Part shown: positions 6,367-40,227 of the stretch, piece by piece
How positions within the stretch are numbered: position 1 is the first letter of the stretch
Layout of the letters: every line of letters starts with the position of its first letter
DNA from: Fimbriimonadaceae bacterium
GTDB lineage: Bacteria > Armatimonadota > Fimbriimonadia > Fimbriimonadales > Fimbriimonadaceae
Reading direction: 5' to 3'
DNA: 64,000 bases
NCBI GenBank assembly: GCA_019638675.1
Contig: JAHBTE010000001.1
Span: 1,768,605 to 1,832,604, forward strand
Notes under the pieces: generated by a model
Seen by the model: the letters and a program-made list of their open reading frames with translations, nothing else
Told to the model about the DNA's origin: nothing
Database searches by the model: none
Translations under genes and position numbers: made by a program

Positions 6367-6379
6367 TAGATACTGCTAT

Positions 6380-6760
6380 TTATCTAGCTTGTTGACTAGT
6401 TGGACTAGTGCTTCCACCTGTCATGGCACCAAAAACTCCACAGGAGACGCAACACAGGAAGGGTATGCCAATAATGATCATGATAAAAAAGAGGCTTATC
6501 CCACCGCAAGTTCCGACGGTTGATGATGCCGTGCGGCTAAACGCATCGTTTGCCGCATCGGTTGCATCGCGAGGAGGAGTGGCATAAACAATTAAATTTT
6601 GACTCGGAGGCTGACCCACTTGTTGGGATGGAATGTAAGGTGGTTGACCCTGGGGCATTACTTGCACAACTGAGGACCAACCGCAGTGATGACAAGCTTT
6701 GGCACCCTTTGGAATCTTCTTGTTACACTTAGGACAATCATCAAATACAAGTGTTGCCAT
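6380..6760 (-). CDS. Zinc-ribbon membrane protein
   Basis: 126 residues. The N-terminus carries CPKCNKKIPKGAKACHHCGW, a two-knuckle zinc ribbon (CxxC...CxxC), followed by a Pro/Gln-rich linker (~30-60) and one strongly hydrophobic helix (~88-110) containing a further cysteine cluster, LCCVSCG. Probably membrane-anchored with the ribbon on the cytoplasmic side; such proteins often have regulatory or assembly roles but the substrate is unknown. TATACT lies 8 nt before the ATG with no Shine-Dalgarno, consistent with a leaderless mRNA. Divergent from the deacetylase gene. Confidence 0.7.
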   Translation of the reverse strand: MATLVFDDCPKCNKKIPKGAKACHHCGWSSVVQVMPQGQPPYIPSQQVGQPPSQNLIVYATPPRDATDAANDAFSRTASSTVGTCGGISLFFIMIIIGIPFLCCVSCGVFGAMTGGSTSPTSQQAR

Positions 6761-6812
6761 AAAAATCTAGTATAGCGAACTAATTAGTAATAGTATCAAT
6801 CTGTCGTAATTT

Positions 6813-7901
6813 TTGCATGATACACTCATATTCTTGATCCCCAATTTTTATTACCACCCAAGGATGATGGAGTACGATTTCGGGCCGAAGCATCCACTCA
6901 AGCCCATCCGACTCCAGCGAACCGAGGCGTTATTGCGGGCGATGGTTCCCGATTTAGCGTGTATTGACCCTGGATTGGCCGAGCCAGAAGAAATCGCCTT
7001 TGTCCACAGCCAAGACTATATAGAAGTGGCGCAATCGTTGAGTACGGGTGAGCAGGTGCCGCCCGAAGTTCTATTTAGTTATGGGTTTGGCAGCGTGGAT
7101 ACACCACCGTTCCGAGGGATGTTCGGCGCGGCCCTCGCCTATTGCGGAGGAGCGGTTCGGGCCGCTGAAGATTTATTGGTTGGGGAAGAACTTGCTTTTA
7201 ACATCGGCGGGGGCCTCCATCACGCACAACGCTCGCGGGCGAGTGGATTTTGCGTGTTCAACGATCCCGCGATTTCCCTGATGATCTTAAAACAGCGGTT
7301 TAAGAAACTGATGTATGTGGATATCGATCTTCACCACGGTGACGGAGTGCAGGCAATTTTTGAAGACGACCCAGATGTTCTCACCCTCAGCATTCATGAA
7401 TCCGGGAAAACACTTTATCCTGGCACTGGGTTTGTGGAAGAAACAGGAGCGGGCGGCGCGATAGTGAACATCCCTCTCGAAGCAAGAACTACGAGCGATA
7501 CCTGGATTTGGGCGTTTAGGGAAGTGTTCGCTCGAACGGTGAACTGGTTCCAGCCCGAGGCGATAGTTCTCCAAATGGGATGCGATCCGCACACGAACGA
7601 TCCGTTGGGGCACCTTGCGGTCACGGTGCAGGAATGGCTTGCCGCGGTGACTTTGGTGAAGAAAACCGGGCTACCGATTCTAGCGTGCGGCGGCGGTGGT
7701 TATGCTATCGAAAACGTTCCGCGCATGTGGGCGGCGGCCGTGATGGAACTTTCGGGGCTAGAAATTCCAGAACGCGCACCTGATTCGATCCCAATTGAGT
7801 GGGGCGTGAGTGCGATCTTTGATGCTGATCCTGGCGACCGTTGGATTGGTCGCCAAGAAGCTGAACGGGTTGTCGAATACTGGAAAGAAAAGCTCGGTTA
7901 A
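6813..7901 (+). CDS. AcuC/HDAC-like deacetylase
   Basis: 362 residues, whole arginase/deacetylase fold of class I-like bacterial histone deacetylases (acetoin-utilisation AcuC type; lysine or small-molecule deacetylation). Signatures: YDFGPKHPLKPIRL near the N-terminus, GGLHHA with the catalytic His pair, VDIDLHHGDGVQ with the Asp/His zinc ligands, MGCDPHTNDPLGHL with the third Asp ligand, and GGGGY with the transition-state Tyr. Start is TTG 6813: an in-frame stop sits two codons upstream and the first beta strand (TLIFLIPNF) lies before the next ATG at 6864. Neighbours do not reveal the substrate. Overlaps the next gene tail-to-tail by 4 nt. Confidence 0.88.
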   Translation: MHDTLIFLIPNFYYHPRMMEYDFGPKHPLKPIRLQRTEALLRAMVPDLACIDPGLAEPEEIAFVHSQDYIEVAQSLSTGEQVPPEVLFSYGFGSVDTPPFRGMFGAALAYCGGAVRAAEDLLVGEELAFNIGGGLHHAQRSRASGFCVFNDPAISLMILKQRFKKLMYVDIDLHHGDGVQAIFEDDPDVLTLSIHESGKTLYPGTGFVEETGAGGAIVNIPLEARTTSDTWIWAFREVFARTVNWFQPEAIVLQMGCDPHTNDPLGHLAVTVQEWLAAVTLVKKTGLPILACGGGGYAIENVPRMWAAAVMELSGLEIPERAPDSIPIEWGVSAIFDADPGDRWIGRQEAERVVEYWKEKLG

Positions 7902-8140
7902 CTGCGCATCGTGCAGTCAACGATGACGTCTTTGATGTTTGGTCGGGTTCGGAGTACCTTGGCGATGGTTTCAAGCTCGGCGCGAACATCCTGAGGCCCG
8001 CCTTTGATCGTCCCGACGCTTCCCCGGATGTAGGCGATTCCGTGTGTCACGCGCAAGTCCGCGCGGGTGGTGTCTAAGCCTCGTTTAGAAAATTCTTGTC
8101 GGACGGCTTTGGTAGCGGCAACATCATTGGGATCAGCCAT
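7898..8140 (-). CDS. Small BON-domain-like protein
   Basis: 80 residues, no signal peptide, begins MADPNDVAATKAVRQEF. The pattern LRVTHGIAYIRGSV followed by a helix and PNIKDVIVDC matches the alpha/beta arrangement of BON domains, which bind membranes or polymers, although here the protein appears cytoplasmic. Start supported by TAAAAT 6 nt upstream (leaderless type). A decayed copy of the first ~12 codons lies at 9952-9985 as part of a duplication scar. Confidence 0.65.
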   Translation of the reverse strand: MADPNDVAATKAVRQEFSKRGLDTTRADLRVTHGIAYIRGSVGTIKGGPQDVRAELETIAKVLRTRPNIKDVIVDCTMRS

Positions 8141-8204
8141 AGACTGATTTTATCTGATAGAAACTCGAGTTGTGTGTGGGTGAAATTCAAAAAAGAATCA
8201 CTAA

Positions 8205-8694
8205 TTACTTCGTAAGCACTTTTCGAATGTCCTTTTCAAGCTCCCTTATGACTTCTTTGCTTGCTTTGTAAGGAGTCGGAACGGATCTGACTCGCTTGAG
8301 AACAAAATATCGCGGATCGGTGTCATTAAATGCAGTTCATCACCCCTTAACTCCCCACCCAGGTTTGGAACTGGTGTGCCAGCACCTAGATCTTTGTCAA
8401 TCCCGCCGAGATAAAGATTTCCATCTTCAACTTTCTAGTTCATGTTCCAAACACAGTCAACAGTGGCTAATGTCGAGTCTGATGCTCTATGGTCGTCCCA
8501 TAAAATGAATACTCGTAAGCGACCATCAGGTTCAGTACCAGCCCAAAAGCCATAACCTGTAAGCCAGTCAATATTCCTGGTTTGATTGTCGGTTCACTAT
8601 TCTGAGGGGCTTGTGCAGGCTTTTTCAGGGACTCTTGCTTTGGTGCATTTGAGCATGAAATCAATAAGCCTATGCTAATTAAAGCGATAATCAA
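8205..8694 (-). pseudogene. Frameshifted lipoprotein pseudogene
   Basis: Protein-like sequence continues across frames on the minus strand. Frame A from TTG 8694 gives a lipoprotein signal (LISIGLLISCSNAP), then jumps near 8590 to another frame reading NIDWLTGYGFWAGTEPDG and on to DHRASDSTLATVDCVWNMN, meets an in-frame TAG, continues as KVEDGNLYLGGIDKDLG, and switches again to end DTDPRYFVLKRVRSVPTPY...KVLTK at 8205. So at least two frameshifts and a stop have broken a gene of about 160 codons. YGFWAG also occurs in the intact neighbour at 8784, so the two may be old paralogues. Alternative: sequencing error, less likely for several lesions in one gene. Confidence 0.6.
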
Positions 8695-8783
8695 AGCCGA
8701 AATTATCTCTATTGCTATTTGAGTGTTTTCATCGGGGTAAAAGGTTCATGTGAGTTCAATCAACTATTCACGATTGTTAAATT

Positions 8784-9329
8784 TTATTGCTGCAGTATCC
8801 ATTGATTTATCAAATCATGTACTTCCTTTTCTTTCGTACTTGTGAATTCCTCATGATGCATAGATTCAACTTTGTGGCTGTTACTGGTTACGTCTCCGAA
8901 ATAAAACACATAGTTCATTCCTTCACCACCGTCTGTTGTTAATTGCAAAACAAAGCGTTTCCTGCCCGCCCAAAAGCCATATTCATCTGTACTATTTCCT
9001 GCGAGATACAGGCGTGGATACTTCTCGAATAAATCGTAGGGCAGTACAATTGTTTTTGAACCAAGAGTCACACTTCCAGAAGTTATATTGTATGTAAATG
9101 AATCGGGCTCTTTCTCTCCCTGGCGTTTCCCCGCAAGTACTACCAGCGCAGGTTCTTTTCCTGTCTGACTCAAAGTGATGATACGGCTCTCATTTTCACC
9201 AGACCAATCTAACTTGGCAAATCCTTCAATTACCTTTTCGGCCTCTTGTGCTGATTTATCGCAACCAGATGACGCTACAACGAGCAGAGTCAAACTGACA
9301 AAAAAAACTGTAATTGCACGTCTACTCAT
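8784..9329 (-). CDS. Putative lipoprotein of unknown function
   Basis: 181 residues from ATG 9329, chosen because TAAGG precedes it by 7 nt and the signal peptide follows directly; a longer frame from 9371 would add 14 unlikely residues. Signal MSRRAITVFFVSLTLLVVAS ends at a cysteine (SSGC), suggesting lipidation though the lipobox is imperfect. The mature part is soluble and beta-rich, with YGFWAG at about residue 120. No known family recognised. Sits in an accessory patch with a broken relative downstream. Confidence 0.65.
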   Translation of the reverse strand: MSRRAITVFFVSLTLLVVASSGCDKSAQEAEKVIEGFAKLDWSGENESRIITLSQTGKEPALVVLAGKRQGEKEPDSFTYNITSGSVTLGSKTIVLPYDLFEKYPRLYLAGNSTDEYGFWAGRKRFVLQLTTDGGEGMNYVFYFGDVTSNSHKVESMHHEEFTSTKEKEVHDLINQWILQQ

Positions 9330-9548
9330 AACGACCCTTAATGAATCTTCTTCGACCCTATTCTGGCGCATTTATAGTCAATTGGTGGGTTGCGTATAAC
9401 ACGTTTCAGCAGATGTTTTTGTAGAGCCATTGCTTTGCCACAACCCCACCGGGTCACAGTGCGACTACCTTACCCAAACTTGGGGAGGGATAAATCGTAA
9501 GACCAAGTGGTACTGATTCTAACCCTTAGGAAACCTGATCGTACGGCC

Positions 9549-9887
9549 TTAGTCGGTAGGCGCGTTCGCAAGATTAAACACAACCTCTCCGCTCTTTTTT
9601 ACTTCTATTGAGCCAGAATCACTTTTTTGATCCCACGGATAGATACGTCTCGAAATTGACCTATTTGAACCTTGAACTTGGACAAGGTACGTCCATTTCC
9701 ACGGATGCAAAACGGCTGTGTCGGCGGAGAATTGAACAACCTGTCCGTCAATATAGACATTCGAGTTTGGGTCACTTCTTATTATGAGAATAGGGTTGAA
9801 ATATGGGTTAAAAAAAATAATCAGGAGTAATGTCCCCAAAGCTAAGCAGACAAAGTATTTCCACAAATGCGGGATTCGTTTCTTCAT
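9549..9887 (-). CDS. Membrane-anchored PEGA-like protein
   Basis: 112 residues. A basic N-terminus (MKKRIPHLWKY) and one hydrophobic helix (~11-27) anchor it; outside, SDPNSNVYIDGQVVQ followed by strands to WKWTYLVQVQ resembles a single PEGA repeat, a beta module of surface-associated proteins. TTAGG abuts the ATG. Function unknown; accessory, no counterpart nearby. Confidence 0.55.
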   Translation of the reverse strand: MKKRIPHLWKYFVCLALGTLLLIIFFNPYFNPILIIRSDPNSNVYIDGQVVQFSADTAVLHPWKWTYLVQVQGSNRSISRRIYPWDQKSDSGSIEVKKSGEVVFNLANAPTD

Positions 9888-9912
9888 CCTAATTTCACCA
9901 CTAGCTTACAAA

Positions 9913-9985
9913 TTACATCGTCGGAAGCTTATTCTTCCGCCGAAGCTTTGGTAACCGCAACATCGTTAGGATCAGCAATGGTTGA
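9913..9985 (-). repeat. Chimeric duplication scar: BON-gene start fused to rimK end
   Basis: Reading the minus strand, 30 of 35 bases from 9979 match the start of the BON gene at 8140 (I-A-D-P-N-D-V-A versus M-A-D-P-N-D-V-A). At the shared string ACCAAAGC the sequence switches to a copy of the last 40 bases of rimK (34 of 40 match; genuine end at 10409-10448). ACCAAAGCC is common to both parents, so the junction lies on a 9-nt microhomology. The upstream bases also resemble the BON leader. Non-coding relic, stop codons present. The rest of 9888-10015 holds nothing else I recognise. Confidence 0.7.
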
Positions 9986-10015
9986 ATTTTAGCAAAGGTC
10001 AAGCAGGTAAAACTT

Positions 10016-10333
10016 CTAATCATTCTTTTTCGGATAATTGTATTCTCCGGCCCTGGAAATGCCTGCATTGTTCGTGTAGTTCAGATCGCCGCCTTGATCC
10101 ACTAGGTATTTTCCGATTTCGTAATGGCCCCTGCCAAATGCTTCCCACGCAGCTCGCTCTCCATTTTCGTCTTTTATTTTGGGATCAACGCCACTTTCAA
10201 CCAGACGCTTGACCTCCTCAAAATCGCCTGCCTTTGCCGCTTGATGTAAGGGTGTGCCACGATATTCCAAACCATTGCACCCGCTGCAAAAGGCTAACAC
10301 AAGCAATATGGGTAGTGACGGATACGGTTTCAC
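10016..10333 (-). CDS. Ankyrin-repeat lipoprotein
   Basis: 105 residues, GTG start with AGGAG about 11 nt upstream. Signal MKPYPSLPILLVLAFCSGC with a lipobox-like end at Cys19. The mature part contains roughly two ankyrin repeats: GTPLHQAAKAGDFEEVKRLV and the next with GERAAWEAFGRGHYEIGKYL, so it should be an extracytoplasmic protein-binding module. Partner unknown. It lies between the genuine end of rimK and the decayed copy of that end at 9913-9952. Confidence 0.75.
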   Translation of the reverse strand: MKPYPSLPILLVLAFCSGCNGLEYRGTPLHQAAKAGDFEEVKRLVESGVDPKIKDENGERAAWEAFGRGHYEIGKYLVDQGGDLNYTNNAGISRAGEYNYPKKND

Positions 10334-10408
10334 TGATTAGTTGCTCCTATGAGGTTATTACTCGGAATTTGTCTGCTTGCCTTACGAAGCTTCAAATGGT
10401 GCTTAAAC

Positions 10409-11581
10409 TTAATTTGTCGGAAGCTTCTTCTTTCGCCGAGGCTTTGGTCGCGCAGGAATCAGGCCGCGCATGGATTCGTGCTTTCCAAAGCAAAGCAGTC
10501 GGTCGCCAGATTGCAATACAAATGTGCTCCGGGGATTTTCCAAGAACAAATCCGGTCGCTCTACTGTAAGAACAACGATATCCTTTTCCCGGATTCCAGA
10601 TTCGCGGATCGTTTTCTGATCGAATTCCGGCGTGTTGGGCACCACCAATTCGGCAACGCCGTAACCAGTTTGGAGAGAAAGGCGCTCCCGAACATCAAGC
10701 TCGGGGAAGGTGACCTGCTCGGCGATGTAATCAATGATCTGCCCGGCGACATCGATTCCAGTGCAGGTTTCGATTCCTTCTAGACCCGGGGATGAGTTGA
10801 CTTCGATAACTTGCGGGCCGTCTTGGCTTTCCAGCATATCAACGCCAGCAATCCGGAGACCAAGAATCTTTGCCGCCTGAATCGCGGTTCGTTCGTACTC
10901 TTTGGGGAGGTCAAGGGCTTCGGCTTTGCCGCCGCGGTGGATATTGCTTCGGAATTCTTGCCCTTGGGCTACCCGCCGCATACCAGCGACAACCCGGTCG
11001 CCAACCACAAACGCTCGGACATCTTTGCCCTTAGATTCCGCGACAAACTTTTGAATCAAAACGTTTTGCTTGGCGCCGTGCAGAGTTTCAATAATCGCTT
11101 CCGCGACTTTTTGAGTCTCGGCTAGAATTACACCGACTCCTTGGGTTCCTTCGAGCAGCTTGATAATGACTGGCGCGCCACCCACGCTTTCAATCGCGTG
11201 GAGAATATCTTTGCGGTCACGCACAAAGCTTGTGGGAGCGATTCCGATATCGTATTTGCTTAGAATTTGCAGACAGCGGAGTTTGTCGCGAGTGTTCCCG
11301 ATAGCGTTAGAAGTGTTCGCCGTAAACACGCCCATCTGTTGAAATTGGCGGACGATGGAAGTTCCGTAAGAAGTAATTGATGCTCCAATCCGAGGGATGA
11401 TTGCATCGTATGTGGAAAGCCGCCGGCCCCGGTAGAACAGCTCCGGATGCTGGTGCTCAATGTGGATGCTGAACTTGAGAGTATCTAAAACTTTGACGTT
11501 GTGGCCACGATCGACCGCCGCCTCGCGAAGGCGTCGCGTGGAATACAAATTGCGATTACGGCTGAGAATGGCGACCTTCAT
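10409..11581 (-). CDS. rimK: RimK-type glutamate ligase fused to an RCK_C domain
   Basis: 390 residues. Residues 1-~290 are a complete RimK ATP-grasp ligase (MKVAILSR start; KLLEGTQGVGV nucleotide-binding loop; VIEVNSSPGLEGIE metal/ATP site), the family that adds glutamates to the C-terminus of ribosomal protein S6. Residues ~305-378 are extra: GYGVAELVVPNTPEF, IREKDIVVLTVERPD and STFVLQSGDRLLCFG match an RCK_C/TrkA-C domain, known from K+ transporters as a ligand sensor that in some proteins binds c-di-AMP. A basic tail (PKPRRKKKLPTN) ends the protein. It follows rimB by 23 nt, so likely an operon. Family function is firm; regulation through RCK_C is inference. Confidence 0.88.
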   Translation of the reverse strand: MKVAILSRNRNLYSTRRLREAAVDRGHNVKVLDTLKFSIHIEHQHPELFYRGRRLSTYDAIIPRIGASITSYGTSIVRQFQQMGVFTANTSNAIGNTRDKLRCLQILSKYDIGIAPTSFVRDRKDILHAIESVGGAPVIIKLLEGTQGVGVILAETQKVAEAIIETLHGAKQNVLIQKFVAESKGKDVRAFVVGDRVVAGMRRVAQGQEFRSNIHRGGKAEALDLPKEYERTAIQAAKILGLRIAGVDMLESQDGPQVIEVNSSPGLEGIETCTGIDVAGQIIDYIAEQVTFPELDVRERLSLQTGYGVAELVVPNTPEFDQKTIRESGIREKDIVVLTVERPDLFLENPRSTFVLQSGDRLLCFGKHESMRGLIPARPKPRRKKKLPTN

Positions 11582-27496: not shown

Positions 27497-27577
27497 TTGG
27501 CCAAAGAGCATTTTGAAAGCCTAATAGCGGTTTGTGGACTGCGCGTAAAAGACACCGGAAGCTACTCTCAAGAGAAG

Positions 27578-30485: not shown

Positions 30486-30566
30486 TTAAGCTTCGAGCAG
30501 CGTCCGGTGATCTTTTACGGGCAGTCCACAAACAGTAATTAGGCTTTCAAAGTGTTTTTAGCCAAC
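30476..30566 (+). repeat. 3' arm of the 23S processing stem
   Basis: Reverse complement of 27497-27588 with only a few mismatches and bulges. Lies between 23S and 5S; cutting within the duplex would free pre-23S from the 5S part of the transcript. Confidence 0.88.
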
Positions 30567-34057: not shown

Positions 34058-35725
34058 ATGCCCGACGAAAGAGAAGTAATTTACGACCCGCTGATTGAAT
34101 TGATGGCGCGGTTTGAAAACGTGAAAGCAGTGGATACCAGCGTCGATCCATTTGCTGACCTCTCGGCCGAAGATCGCCTCAAAAAGCATATCATTGAGGG
34201 CATTAAGAAGAGCCTCGAAGCTCATCTGGACGATGCACTGAAAACGTACGAGCCGCTCGCGATCATCAACGACATCCTCCTTGACGGGATGAAAACCGTC
34301 GGAGAGTTGTTCGGCGCGGGAAAAATGCAGTTGCCGTTCGTTCTACAGTCGGCCGAGGTGATGAAGGCGGCGGTGCGGCACCTTGAACCGCTAATGGAAA
34401 AGGTCGAAGGCTCCGAAAGAGGATCAATCCTGCTCGCGACGGTTGCGGGCGATGTTCACGATATCGGCAAGAACTTGGTAGATATTATCCTGAGTAACAA
34501 CGGATATCGCGTTGTCAACATTGGTATTAAGCAACCAATTAACAATATTCTGAGTGAAGCAGAAGCGAACAACTGCCAAGTGATTGGTTTGAGCGGCTTA
34601 CTTGTTAAGAGCACGCTGGTCATGCGTGATAACCTGCTGGAGATGAACGCGCGAGGTTTAGAACATTATCCGGTAATTTTGGGCGGTGCCGCATTAACTC
34701 GTGGATATGTTGAGGAAGATCTTCGCAGTATCTACAATGGGCGCGTGTATTATGCTCAAGATGCCTTTGAAGGTCTGCATTTAATGGGCGAATTATGTTC
34801 AGAAACTGCAGAAAACCCTGTGAAAGCGGAACCAAAAGCGCATGTGAGGGTATCCAGCCATCGTTTGCCCGACCGTGATCCAGAATTGTATGTTTTTGAT
34901 GGCACCAAGAGCGCAGTCGAACCATCTGAAATCGTGCCAGTTATTCCGTTTTACGGCGTAAAGAAACGCACAGACTTTGATATTTTTGAGATTTATCAAT
35001 ATATCAACCCTGTTGCATTATTCCGAGGTCAATGGCAGTATAAAAAACCAGATGATCTTACTAATCCTCAGTTCACGGCTTGGCTAGAAGAAAATGTTCG
35101 CCCGATTTTTGTTCGCAAACAACGCGAACTGGCCAACATCATGAAGCCAGCGGTGAAGTGGGGTTACTTTTACTGCCAAAGTGAAGGGAATGATCTCATC
35201 ATTCTGCAAGAGGACGCCAAGTCCGAGCGTTGCCGGTTCCAGTTTCCACGTCAACGCGATGGCAAGCGTCTGTGTCTCAGCGACTTTTTTAGAAGCACGG
35301 ATAGCGGGGAAGTTGATGTTGTTGGGTTTAGCATTGTCACGGTCGGCGGAGAAGTGAGCGAACACGAGCGCAAACAGTTCGCAGACGGAGATTTCCAGGA
35401 GTATCTATACACGCACGGTATGGGGGTTGAAACCGCCGAGGCTCTCGCCGAGTATTGGCACAAATCCATGCGACACGAAATGGGATTCGGCCACAACGAT
35501 CCCGAGGATAAGCGCCTGCTGTTTGCCGCGCGATATCAAGGCAGCCGGTATTCGTTCGGCTACCCCGCATGCCCCAATTTGGAAGACCAATCTATGCTTA
35601 TGGAACTGCTCCAGCCAGAGGATATTGGGATCAAATTGAGCGAGGAGTTCATGCTAGAACCGGAGCAAAGCACGTCCGCCATCATCGTCCACCACCCAGC
35701 GGCGAAATATTTCAACATCAAGTAG
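34058..35725 (+). CDS. metH: C-terminal half of cobalamin-dependent methionine synthase
   Basis: 555 residues. Cap helices ~30-115, B12-binding Rossmann domain ~120-250 with the DxHxxG motif in AGDVHDIGKNL, and AdoMet reactivation domain ~285-555 ending FGYPACPNLEDQ and HHPAAKYFNIK, as in full MetH. The homocysteine and methyltetrahydrofolate domains that fill the first ~650 residues of standard MetH are absent. An in-frame TAA lies about 10 codons upstream of the ATG, so this is a real gene start rather than a missed upstream portion. The other half would have to be encoded elsewhere. Remethylates homocysteine to methionine in combination with that half. Confidence 0.9.
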   Translation: MPDEREVIYDPLIELMARFENVKAVDTSVDPFADLSAEDRLKKHIIEGIKKSLEAHLDDALKTYEPLAIINDILLDGMKTVGELFGAGKMQLPFVLQSAEVMKAAVRHLEPLMEKVEGSERGSILLATVAGDVHDIGKNLVDIILSNNGYRVVNIGIKQPINNILSEAEANNCQVIGLSGLLVKSTLVMRDNLLEMNARGLEHYPVILGGAALTRGYVEEDLRSIYNGRVYYAQDAFEGLHLMGELCSETAENPVKAEPKAHVRVSSHRLPDRDPELYVFDGTKSAVEPSEIVPVIPFYGVKKRTDFDIFEIYQYINPVALFRGQWQYKKPDDLTNPQFTAWLEENVRPIFVRKQRELANIMKPAVKWGYFYCQSEGNDLIILQEDAKSERCRFQFPRQRDGKRLCLSDFFRSTDSGEVDVVGFSIVTVGGEVSEHERKQFADGDFQEYLYTHGMGVETAEALAEYWHKSMRHEMGFGHNDPEDKRLLFAARYQGSRYSFGYPACPNLEDQSMLMELLQPEDIGIKLSEEFMLEPEQSTSAIIVHHPAAKYFNIK

Positions 35726-35763: not shown

Positions 35764-36714
35764 ATGGAATTCATTACTTTGGCCGCAGTTCTTGTCGGTT
35801 TGCAAAGCCAGCCGATGGTTGAGAAAAACTGTAAAGTATTTGATACAAAGGCCGGAACAACACTTGTTGCGCGAGCAAAAGGCGATGGTTTCGCATATAC
35901 GGACGGTAGTAAAGTGTTTTTAATTGATGAGAACGGGAAGCAAGAGCGTAGCTTGCCGCTAAAAGTTGGAAACGTTCCAATTGCAATCAATGAAAATGAA
36001 GAACTTTTCCAAGTTAGTCGGAAACCCGTTACAGATGAAAAAGAATCTGGACAATTTAAGTATTCCGAATTTAAAAGTATTGGAGGAACATTGGCCTTCG
36101 ATATGCGTAGTATTACATTATTTACTGATATCCATTGGAGTGTTCCTCTAGGAGGCTCTTTTGATGGTCTTGGAATCAACAAGGAGCAAAACCGGATCTT
36201 ATACATTGATAGCTCGGGCAATGTTCCGTTTTTGAAGGAATATCAACTAGTTGATTATGAGTGGAATCAAGTAGGTAAGCCGCAGGTTCCTTTAGTGTTA
36301 GATAAGGGAGGTAGAGGAGATGGTGTTGGATGGGCCATGCCGCAGAATCGCTTTAACGACGTTGTTTTCTTAAGCGAAAAATATGCGGCATTTTTGGGTG
36401 GTTTCGGTTTTACTGCAGGTGATGATTTGGTAGATAAGTTTGTTAGCGCATTGGTGAATTTTCCTGATTTCAGGATGGAACAGTCTCTCGGGAGAGGGGA
36501 GAGTTCAATGGTCTTATTTATTTTTGATATTAAGTATGGTGTTGGGTACGGGTACGGCTTGGTTACGAAGGATGGAAGCGGTGAACGCGGGAATTTGGGA
36601 TTTGGTCGGATGATGGTTTCCGGGTCGCAAAAGTTTTTGTATCTGAAAGGGGAAGATAAGGTGCTTCAGCTTCCGATTGGGCACGTTTTGAAGTCAGTTG
36701 GGTTTGGGGGCTAG
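35764..36714 (+). CDS. Secreted protein of unknown function (accessory)
   Basis: 316 residues with a hydrophobic start (MEFITLAAVLVGLQSQ). Beta-rich, many Gly-flanked strands, perhaps a propeller-like fold (GDGFAYTDGSKVFLIDENGK, NRILYIDSSGNV). No family recognised. Codon and base composition look more AT-rich than the flanking metH. Bounded by metH and a decayed copy of the metH end. Confidence 0.65.
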   Translation: MEFITLAAVLVGLQSQPMVEKNCKVFDTKAGTTLVARAKGDGFAYTDGSKVFLIDENGKQERSLPLKVGNVPIAINENEELFQVSRKPVTDEKESGQFKYSEFKSIGGTLAFDMRSITLFTDIHWSVPLGGSFDGLGINKEQNRILYIDSSGNVPFLKEYQLVDYEWNQVGKPQVPLVLDKGGRGDGVGWAMPQNRFNDVVFLSEKYAAFLGGFGFTAGDDLVDKFVSALVNFPDFRMEQSLGRGESSMVLFIFDIKYGVGYGYGLVTKDGSGERGNLGFGRMMVSGSQKFLYLKGEDKVLQLPIGHVLKSVGFGG

Positions 36715-36729
36715 GATTACTGATTACAA

Positions 36730-36766
36730 CCACCACCCAGTAGCGAAGTAATTCAATATCAAGTAA
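36730..36766 (+). repeat. Decayed copy of the metH 3' end
   Basis: 31 of 37 bases match the last 37 bases of metH (35689-35725): both begin CCACCACCCAG and end ATCAAGTA(A/G). In the copy the Tyr codon has become TAA. Flanking bases do not match. The rest of 36715-36836 is featureless. Confidence 0.75.
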
Positions 36767-36836: not shown

Positions 36837-37259
36837 ATGAGTTTGTTTATTCTGTGGATTATCGCTACTTTCTTTTGGTCTGTACATCACTTTTTTATAT
36901 GTGCTGCTTTTGGAATGTTAATTGAAGAAAAGATAAAGGCGGGCAACACTCCGTTGCGTAATCCAATTTGGGGATTGATGCTTGTTTTTCCGGCCAGCTT
37001 GATCCTCGGATTTTGTTTCTATTTTGCATCAATTAGCTCAATTGCCGCTGCTTTTTGCGCACTACTTTTAGTGGGAGGGGCTTATATTGGAGTGCGTGAC
37101 TTCCTTAGATACGGAAAAGAATGGAGAAAATATAAGTACGGTTGGATTTTTTTCTCCATTTGCATATTGGGCTCGGTTGTTTTGAGTGGCTTATGCTTGA
37201 ATATGCTCGCCATTGAAGTGCGAGAATTAACAATGTCACGAGATCCAGGCAATATTTGA
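36837..37259 (+). CDS. Four-helix membrane protein, unknown
   Basis: 140 residues, four hydrophobic segments (ILWIIATFFWSVHHFFICAA, LMLVFPASLILGFCFYFASI, AFCALLLVGGAYIG, WIFFSICILGSVVLSGLCLN), AT-rich like the preceding gene. No family recognised. Confidence 0.65.
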   Translation: MSLFILWIIATFFWSVHHFFICAAFGMLIEEKIKAGNTPLRNPIWGLMLVFPASLILGFCFYFASISSIAAAFCALLLVGGAYIGVRDFLRYGKEWRKYKYGWIFFSICILGSVVLSGLCLNMLAIEVRELTMSRDPGNI

Positions 37260-37309: not shown

Positions 37310-38563
37310 ATGACTCCCGATCAGCTGCAAGCAGATGTCGTCCGTAAGTACAGTGAATACATCAACCCGTACCTTGCGCGGCTGATGAACTTCGCCGGGT
37401 TTGGCGTGGAAATCCAAGCGGAAGGGTGCATCATGCGCGACCAGGAAGGCCGCGAGTATCTTGATTTTCTGGGTGGATACGGCGTGTTTTCGCTGGGGCA
37501 CAGAAATCCTAAAGTCGTCCAGGCGGTAAAGGATCAACTCGACCAAATGCCGCTGAGCGGGAAGACATTTTTCGGCTCTAAACAGGCTGATCTTGCGGAA
37601 AAGCTGGCGCAAATCACGCCGGATGGATTGCAGTATTGTTTCTTCAGCAACAGTGGAGCCGAAGCGGTCGAGGCCGCCCTCAAGTTCGCCAAAGGCACAA
37701 CCCGAAGAGCGAAGATCGTGAGCACAATCGGGGGTTTCCACGGCAAAACTTTGGGAACACTCGCCACCACCGGACGAGAAAAATATCAAAAGCCGTTTCT
37801 ACCTCTGATGCCAGGAGTTGAATTTGTCAAATACGGTGATGCGGCGGCGGCATGTGCGGCAATTGATGAAAACACGGCTTGCTTCATTGTCGAAACTCTG
37901 CAAGGCGAAGGCGGCATCCACGTTCCACCCGCTGGCTACCTCAAAGCGGTTCGCGAACGATGCACCGAAGTCTGCGCGCTTTTGATCGTGGATGAAGTCC
38001 AAACCGGGCTTGGTCGCACCGGCAAGATGTTCGGTTGCAACCATGAAGGCGTTTCGCCCGACATCATGACTCTGGCGAAGGCTCTCGGTGGCGGAGTGAT
38101 GCCGATTGGAGCGACGGTGTTCACTCAGCAAGTGTGCGACGCGATATTCAGCGAAAACCCTCTGGCACACACATCCACTTTTGGTGGGAACCCGCTTGCT
38201 TGTTCCGCAGCTCTCGCGGCAATCAAAGTTATTGAAGAAGAAGGATTAGTAGACCAATCCCGCATCAAAGGCGAGAAGATCATGAACGGCCTTAAGGCGA
38301 TTCAATCCAAGCATGACCTGATCGGTGAAGTGCGCGGACAGGGGCTGATGATTGGAGTCGAGTTCACGATGGATGAAGTCGGCGAACTCGTGATTGGTCA
38401 AATGGTGAAGCGGGGAATGGTAGCGGCGTACACGCTCAACAACCCGCGCGTTATCCGGCTCGAACCACCGCTGATCGTTTCAGATGCTCAGATCGACCAA
38501 GCCTTGCAGATTCTGGATGAAGCGGTCAGCGAAACTGCGGAACTCCTCGCGCAGTTTGCGTAG
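37310..38563 (+). CDS. Class III aminotransferase (putrescine/ornithine type)
   Basis: 417 residues. PLP-dependent fold type [33 protein letters not shown], and the PLP lysine in [13 protein letters not shown]. Resembles putrescine and ornithine aminotransferases ([13 protein letters not shown]). Start at ATG 37310 because TATAAT lies 7 nt upstream (leaderless type); an extension to TTG 37256 is unlikely. Probably polyamine or arginine catabolism; substrate not certain. Confidence 0.88.
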
Positions 38564-40146: not shown

Positions 40147-40227
40147 AACGTGCAATTTAGTATGGCAGTAATAATCCGAGAGTCAGGGGTCTGGCAGGGG
40201 ACATTCGGCGGAGTACACTCAACACCA

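Follow-up and report, generated by a model that had tools for sequence, protein, structure and literature searches.

A chimera of two gene ends between rimK and a BON-like gene of a Fimbriimonadaceae bacterium as a candidate fossil of the splicing of two alleles

The spacer between rimK and a BON-like gene in a Fimbriimonadaceae bacterium carries a short chimera in which a copy of the start of the BON-like gene, including its -10 box, runs into a copy of the end of rimK (positions 9991 to 9905, minus strand; all plain positions refer to the window, the whole stretch of 64,000 nucleotides that was analysed, taken from the 2.85-Mb genome G000). We regard it as probable, if by no means certain, that this scar was left by homology-facilitated illegitimate recombination that joined the rimK-ankyrin-BON allele of a related strain to the resident allele. 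On the minus strand the genes are ordered rimK, an ankyrin-repeat gene, the scar, a gene of 112 aa, a lipoprotein-like gene, a broken lipoprotein-like gene and the BON-like gene (Table 1). The entry of small genes into bacterial chromosomes without a mobile element is hard to see afterwards; gene-end scars record the position of the joint, and splice points of this kind, if read correctly, would tell how housekeeping genes come to have small additional genes between them.

Table 1. Features of the rimK-BON locus and of the other gene-end scars of G000 (positions with an L number refer to that locus, all others to the window)
Feature	Position	Strand	Support or remark
rimK, RimK ATP-grasp ligase	10409..11581	-	Pfam RimK 2.7e-59
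ACCAAAGCC, 9-nt microhomology copy in rimK	10440..10448	-	
Ankyrin-repeat gene, cargo of interval 1	10016..10333	-	Pfam Ank_5 1.2e-11
Scar, first half: BON start and its TAAAAT box; ATT in place of the start codon	9945..9991	-	score 47, 0/5000 shuffles
Junction ACCAAAGC, common to both halves	9945..9952	-	
Scar, second half: rimK 3' end, displaced or copied, and a few bases past the stop	9905..9952	-	score 54, 0/5000 shuffles
112-aa cargo gene, directly downstream of the scar	9549..9887	-	
Lipoprotein-like gene, cargo of interval 2	8784..9371 (start perhaps 9326)	-	name from reading the translation
Lipoprotein-like pseudogene, cargo of interval 2	8200..8735 (limits approximate)	-	frame broken, three-frame translation; name from reading the translation
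ACCAAAGCC, 9-nt microhomology copy in the BON-like gene	8105..8113	-	
BON-like gene, 80 aa	7898..8140	-	Pfam BON E 0.061, below cut-off
metH-like gene (34058-35725), 3' end as scar source	35689..35724	+	Pfam Met_synt_B12 1.1e-36 and B12-binding
Copy of the metH 3' end	36730..36765	+	86% over 36 nt, E 5e-5, 20-kb self-search
Unnamed 284-aa gene, 3' end	L222 8966-9022, copied at 9864-9920		
tRNA-Arg	L183 6692-6767; repeat region L183 6749-8534		

In the first half of the scar the start codon is lost (ATG to ATT). This half opens about 12 nt before that codon, at the box TAAAAT, and extends to ACCAAAGC, where the halves are joined; the second half continues from there to just past the rimK stop. 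In the repeat search, 8106-8152 matched 9945-9991 over 47 nt (79%), and 9910-9952 matched 10406-10448 over 43 nt (84%), so that the first 35 nt of the BON-like gene (8106-8140) and the 3' end of rimK (10406-10448) are the respective sources. The 9-mer ACCAAAGCC is the longest exact string common to the first 60 nt of the BON-like gene and the last 52 nt of rimK, and 8 of its nucleotides are retained in the scar. The sequence-only reading had described such a chimera at 9913-9985, joined at a 9-nt string present in both parents, and our analysis bears this out: its coordinates were right within a few bases, and the polarity and the microhomology joint are supported. Similarity to both gene ends is far above chance, since none of 5000 dinucleotide shuffles reached the local alignment score of either half (47 for the BON start, 54 for the rimK end; shuffle maxima 31 and 28). 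When the window was cut into 6360 segments (100 nt every 20 nt on both strands, without the scar), the rimK end and the BON start were the top two places, and the next place scored 29. As the two halves also abut in the right order and on the right strand, a chance resemblance has practically no probability.

The BON-like gene has one matching place each in 58 of the 61 genomes searched. Among 101 genomes, the 112-aa gene found one match outside its own genome (G060, 42%) and the lipoprotein-like gene (queried as 8784-9326) found none; Pfam searches assigned no family to either (9549-9887 and 8784-9371). The pseudogene was considered as a copy of the adjoining lipoprotein gene, and this was rejected because tblastn gave no support. 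The two intervals on either side of the scar have no same-strand nucleotide similarity; the two matches listed are inverted, with E values of 0.088 and 0.31.

This last result bears on how the scar arose. In the reading that we favour there were two alleles, rimK-ankyrin-BON and rimK-lipoproteins-BON. A piece of DNA from a related strain would have aligned by homology on one side, in rimK or equally in BON, and would have been joined on the other side where the BON start and the rimK end have ACCAAAGC in common. A single event would thus yield rimK-ankyrin-[BON start/rimK end]-lipoproteins-BON: the foreign cargo would be gained, no gene would be lost, and two useless gene fragments would be left behind, too short and too diverged for ordinary recombination to pop the insert out other than rarely. 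Of the elements of this scheme, an illegitimate joint at a short common sequence is present (9 nt in both parents, 8 kept), as is non-homologous DNA beside a homologous flank (six species compared, G005/G006 being an exception).

The sequence-only reading had instead proposed a tandem duplication in place, which would involve unequal or slipped recombination at ACCAAAGCC and then either different cargo losses in each copy or gains into an empty spacer that had been doubled. We judge this unlikely, although it deserves serious consideration. The form of the junction is right: polarity and microhomology are exactly as expected, with a direct-orientation joint between the downstream and the upstream end and with the BON promoter placed before the second copy. 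Moreover, laboratory duplications with designed 9-bp microhomology borders do occur and can capture promoters, according to the results given in PMC11111574, and their junctions, like the one described here, link a downstream promoter to an upstream segment via a short common sequence; those duplications, however, were designed and selected, whereas the copies described here are diverged and have no shared interior. It is this missing interior that speaks against the proposal, given that without shared cargo a duplication needs two complementary losses or two gains, while the splicing of two alleles needs one step.

The same locus was compared among eight genomes of the genus. The order rimK then BON was found in six (G000, G003-G007); in G001 and G002 they are on separate contigs and not near the contig ends that matter. 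The gap between them measures 2268 nt in G000, 2063 in G003, 834 in G004, 2580 in G005, 2577 in G006 and 81 in G007. The last value provides the adjacency in a relative that the reading of the sequence had set as a check on its model, and the existence of such an 81-nt spacer suits the duplication. The scar is absent in G003, G004, G005 and G006, which carry 0.8-2.6 kb of other DNA between the genes, and no internal repeat was found at E 1e-3 in the five gaps other than that of G000. Among the six species the gap DNA is without nucleotide similarity, except for G005/G006 (89%). The nearest relative among the genomes compared is G003, whose rimK protein is 99% identical to that of G000 and which matches CP075366.1 (a Fimbriimonadaceae MAG) by rimK position; the alignment of the two breaks off about 16 nt before the rimK end and restarts exactly at the BON ATG. 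DNA at the rimK-BON site turns over whether the scar is present or not. Because four relatives hold other DNA there without it, the duplication cannot have opened the site for gene gain, as had been suggested, and this state of the relatives also counts against the duplication itself. In G006, both rimK and metH are split by a frame break, which reflects assembly errors or real decay.

Three further gene-end scars, at metH, tRNA-Arg and an unnamed gene, were found in 1.18 Mb sampled from G000. For this sample a self-comparison was filtered to retain pairs in which a gene end is matched by a copy outside genes, and REP-like repeats were removed; seven direct and no inverted rows remained, of which two belong to the rimK/BON scar, one to metH and one to the unnamed gene, and three were dropped (one ORF copy and two of an accessory gene in an array). 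Two cargo ORFs without a Pfam family, 35764-36714 and 36837-37259, flank the copy of the metH end, and a class-III aminotransferase gene (37310-38563) follows downstream. In G004 metH and the aminotransferase gene are about 60 nt apart, in G003 641 nt of other DNA stand between the aligned blocks, and in G001, G002, G005 and G006 the aminotransferase gene was not found within 1.5 kb of metH. The unnamed gene, in which Pfam names nothing, has a convergent neighbour that is close in G004 and G007, separated by 1.3 kb of other DNA in G003 and not adjacent in G005 and G006. In G000 the fragment abuts this conserved neighbour; since this is where the true gene end sits in G004 and G007, the fragment looks like a displaced old gene end. 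At tRNA-Arg, which is outside the filter, a stretch of 119 nt, made up of the last 19 nt of the tRNA and the 100 nt downstream, recurs on the far side of two cargo genes (87%). That further scars occur at cargo sites, and that relatives have near-empty states of the metH and unnamed-gene sites, counts in favour of the splicing of alleles. The proteins of the two genes within L183 6749-8534 look alike by eye and have no Pfam family.

The 3' end of a tRNA gene is a classic attachment position, and in all four scars it is the 3' end of the upstream gene that is copied, as would be expected if the copies were attachment-site repeats from site-specific integration into gene 3' ends, the tRNA-Arg scar repeating just the last 19 nt. 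We nevertheless hold this to be very improbable: no integrase family was detected in the nine cargo ORFs scanned (8784-9371, 9549-9887, 10016-10333 and six at the other three scars), the copies are only 82-87% alike, and the rimK/BON scar is a chimera of two genes and not one site. A templated patch, in which a repair polymerase copied the BON start and switched at ACCAAAGC to the rimK end, would leave about 87 nt of filler between unrelated cargo genes with no larger duplication. The alignment is indeed confined to about 87 nt, and stops some 12 nt before the lost ATG and some 8 nt past the rimK stop, but such a patch explains neither the direct-orientation gene ends at the other cargo sites, for which the filter gave no inverted pairs, nor the codon-position pattern described below, and we consider it improbable.

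The same filter gave no direct and no inverted rows in 480 kb of G003, and likewise in 400 kb of G006. At the rate of G000, two to three cases would be predicted in these 880 kb, from which zero differs only weakly. Pairs outside genes were followed less closely in G003 and G006 than in G000. In G006, a 44-nt repeat (L258 9353-9396 and 11233-11276, 93%) comprises the last 4 nt of tRNA-Lys and terminator-like bases downstream of it; with its copy beyond another gene, it is possibly a scar of the same type and was not counted.

Several other repeats were set aside. The direct repeats L170 (2389), L171, L181 and L184 are coding paralogs or a shared C-terminal motif; L222 15287 (376 nt) is an ORF copy; and L275, a 3'-end copy of an accessory gene, was not counted as it lies inside an array of look-alike genes. 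Window 24960 and 54346/54743, L170 10378, and L168 12994 and 18681 were dropped on description only, and G006 L248 was dropped from the scar candidates. The scar count also leaves out the repeats of G006 L247, L249, L252, L255 and L256. The repeats of L220-L222 and L226 were removed as REP-like; a dispersed palindromic REP-like repeat, TTCCCTCCCCA...TGGGGAGGG, occurs there in several copies (L220-L222 in G000, L226 in G003).

The differences between scars and parents were counted by codon position in the four protein-coding fragments (50 codons, 9-mer overlap counted once). The counts at positions 1, 2 and 3 are 0, 1 and 4 for the BON start, 0, 2 and 4 for the rimK end, 0, 1 and 4 for metH and 2, 1 and 7 for the L222 gene, so that 19 of 26 differences fall at third positions; these differ at 38% and the other positions at 7%. 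Decay in situ beside a constrained parent predicts a third-position share of about 45% and at most 50%, against which the excess has a nominal P of 0.003 (at 0.447) or 0.014 (at 0.5) in a small, post hoc test, the pattern having first been noticed on the L222 fragment and then counted over all four. Between G000 and G003, third positions differ at 103 of 385 codons in rimK (27%), 19 of 80 in BON (24%) and 178 of 555 in metH (32%), a level that the scars resemble, as if the copies had diverged as working genes in different lineages. The 7% at other positions is more than between G000 and G003, as expected if the fragments later decayed. The third-position excess weighs, within the limits of a post hoc count, against the tandem duplication, of which the form of the junction stands and the origin in place is disfavoured.

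The age of the scars gives less guidance. Total scar-parent divergence is 5/35, 6/40 and 5/36 (about 0.14-0.15), whereas G000 and G003 are far apart at silent sites (dS 0.41-0.83). An age argument from states common to the scar and G003 or other species was rejected: such states prove nothing, because these distances permit a scar younger than the split, as would also fit the duplication. Three sites of the metH end separate the resident from G003; the scar agrees with G003 at two of them and with the resident at the third, an outcome that either transfer or in-situ duplication would explain. A donor boundary in rimK or metH was sought in the form of a step in divergence and none was clear; in successive blocks of 55 codons, rimK differs from that of G003 at 16, 17, 12, 17, 16, 8 and 17 third positions, and because there is no step towards the 3' end, no boundary of the anchor is seen.

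Splicing of the two alleles would also have carried the BON promoter box along, which may drive the gene behind it. A TANNNT box stands 6 nt before the BON ATG in 6 of the 8 genus genomes, and at 8 nt in G004 and 10 nt in G003. Across the window, TANNNT is most frequent at 6-8 nt ahead of ATG candidates (141 candidates, with 19 boxes at these three distances), a pattern that suggests many leaderless transcripts. The scar retains TAAAAT at the place of the BON box although the ATG is lost, and judging from its position this box could drive transcription into the 112-aa gene, which lies 92 nt further on.

Homology-facilitated illegitimate recombination is described as rare (PMC3240628, PMC5361080). 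The scheme proposed here resembles its account in competent bacteria and E. coli, with one homologous side and one illegitimate joint (PMC3240628), and differs in being reconstructed from a fossil of an uncultured lineage. A donor lineage is not among the eight genus genomes. In an E. coli conjugation selection, 56 of 60 clones were PCR-positive for partial target duplication, with 109-950 bp in the 14 sequenced, and the authors attribute these duplications to one crossover involving a shortened circle and not to homology-facilitated illegitimate recombination (PMC3240628). In the type VI secretion effector-immunity arrays of Vibrio cholerae, a new module beside a conserved anchor pushes the old effector 3' end downstream, for which the authors propose homology-facilitated illegitimate recombination; there the shifted pieces, as described, are effector ends and immunity genes (PMC5361080), whereas here they are housekeeping gene ends (36-57 nt in the protein-coding cases) and the promoter box and start of a neighbour. 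Transformation of Streptococcus pneumoniae also gives tandem structures with a hybrid junction, in merodiploids whose duplications, unlike the case described here, are reported as about 100-900 kb between IS repeats (PMC3784515). Our literature search found nothing on gene duplication in Fimbriimonadaceae genomes.

The rimK/BON event is of a known kind, and its recurrence in one genome is its most interesting side. The donor DNA may have arrived by transformation: PF03772 (Competence, ComEC type) is present in 8 of 8 genus genomes and Ku in 0 of 8, a gene content that fits uptake and counts against Ku-dependent end joining. We advance only speculatively the wider idea that splicing of whole alternative alleles at microhomologies has happened repeatedly in this lineage and is its main way of gaining small accessory genes in housekeeping-gene spacers. 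A datable gene-end fossil would then be left each time, and some of these fossils would carry a neighbour's leaderless promoter that switches on the new cargo. The codon-position pattern of scars may separate transfer from self-duplication, and accessory gene gain could become readable from single genomes of uncultured bacteria.

Compared with G003, non-homologous blocks of the window begin at 6374, 8141, 22313, 30748, 35725, 38563, 54986 and 58977, with a further short one at 40170; lying mostly at gene boundaries, these blocks show a rapid turnover of small genes. At 6374-6818 there is a small zinc-ribbon-like gene (Pfam matches weak, below cut-off) that is absent in G003 and is bordered by GATAC on both sides, a clean insertion or deletion of a single gene with a 5-nt direct repeat. 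An inverted repeat of 72 nt (27497-27567 and 30495-30565, 85%, 3 kb apart) has the same arrangement in G003.
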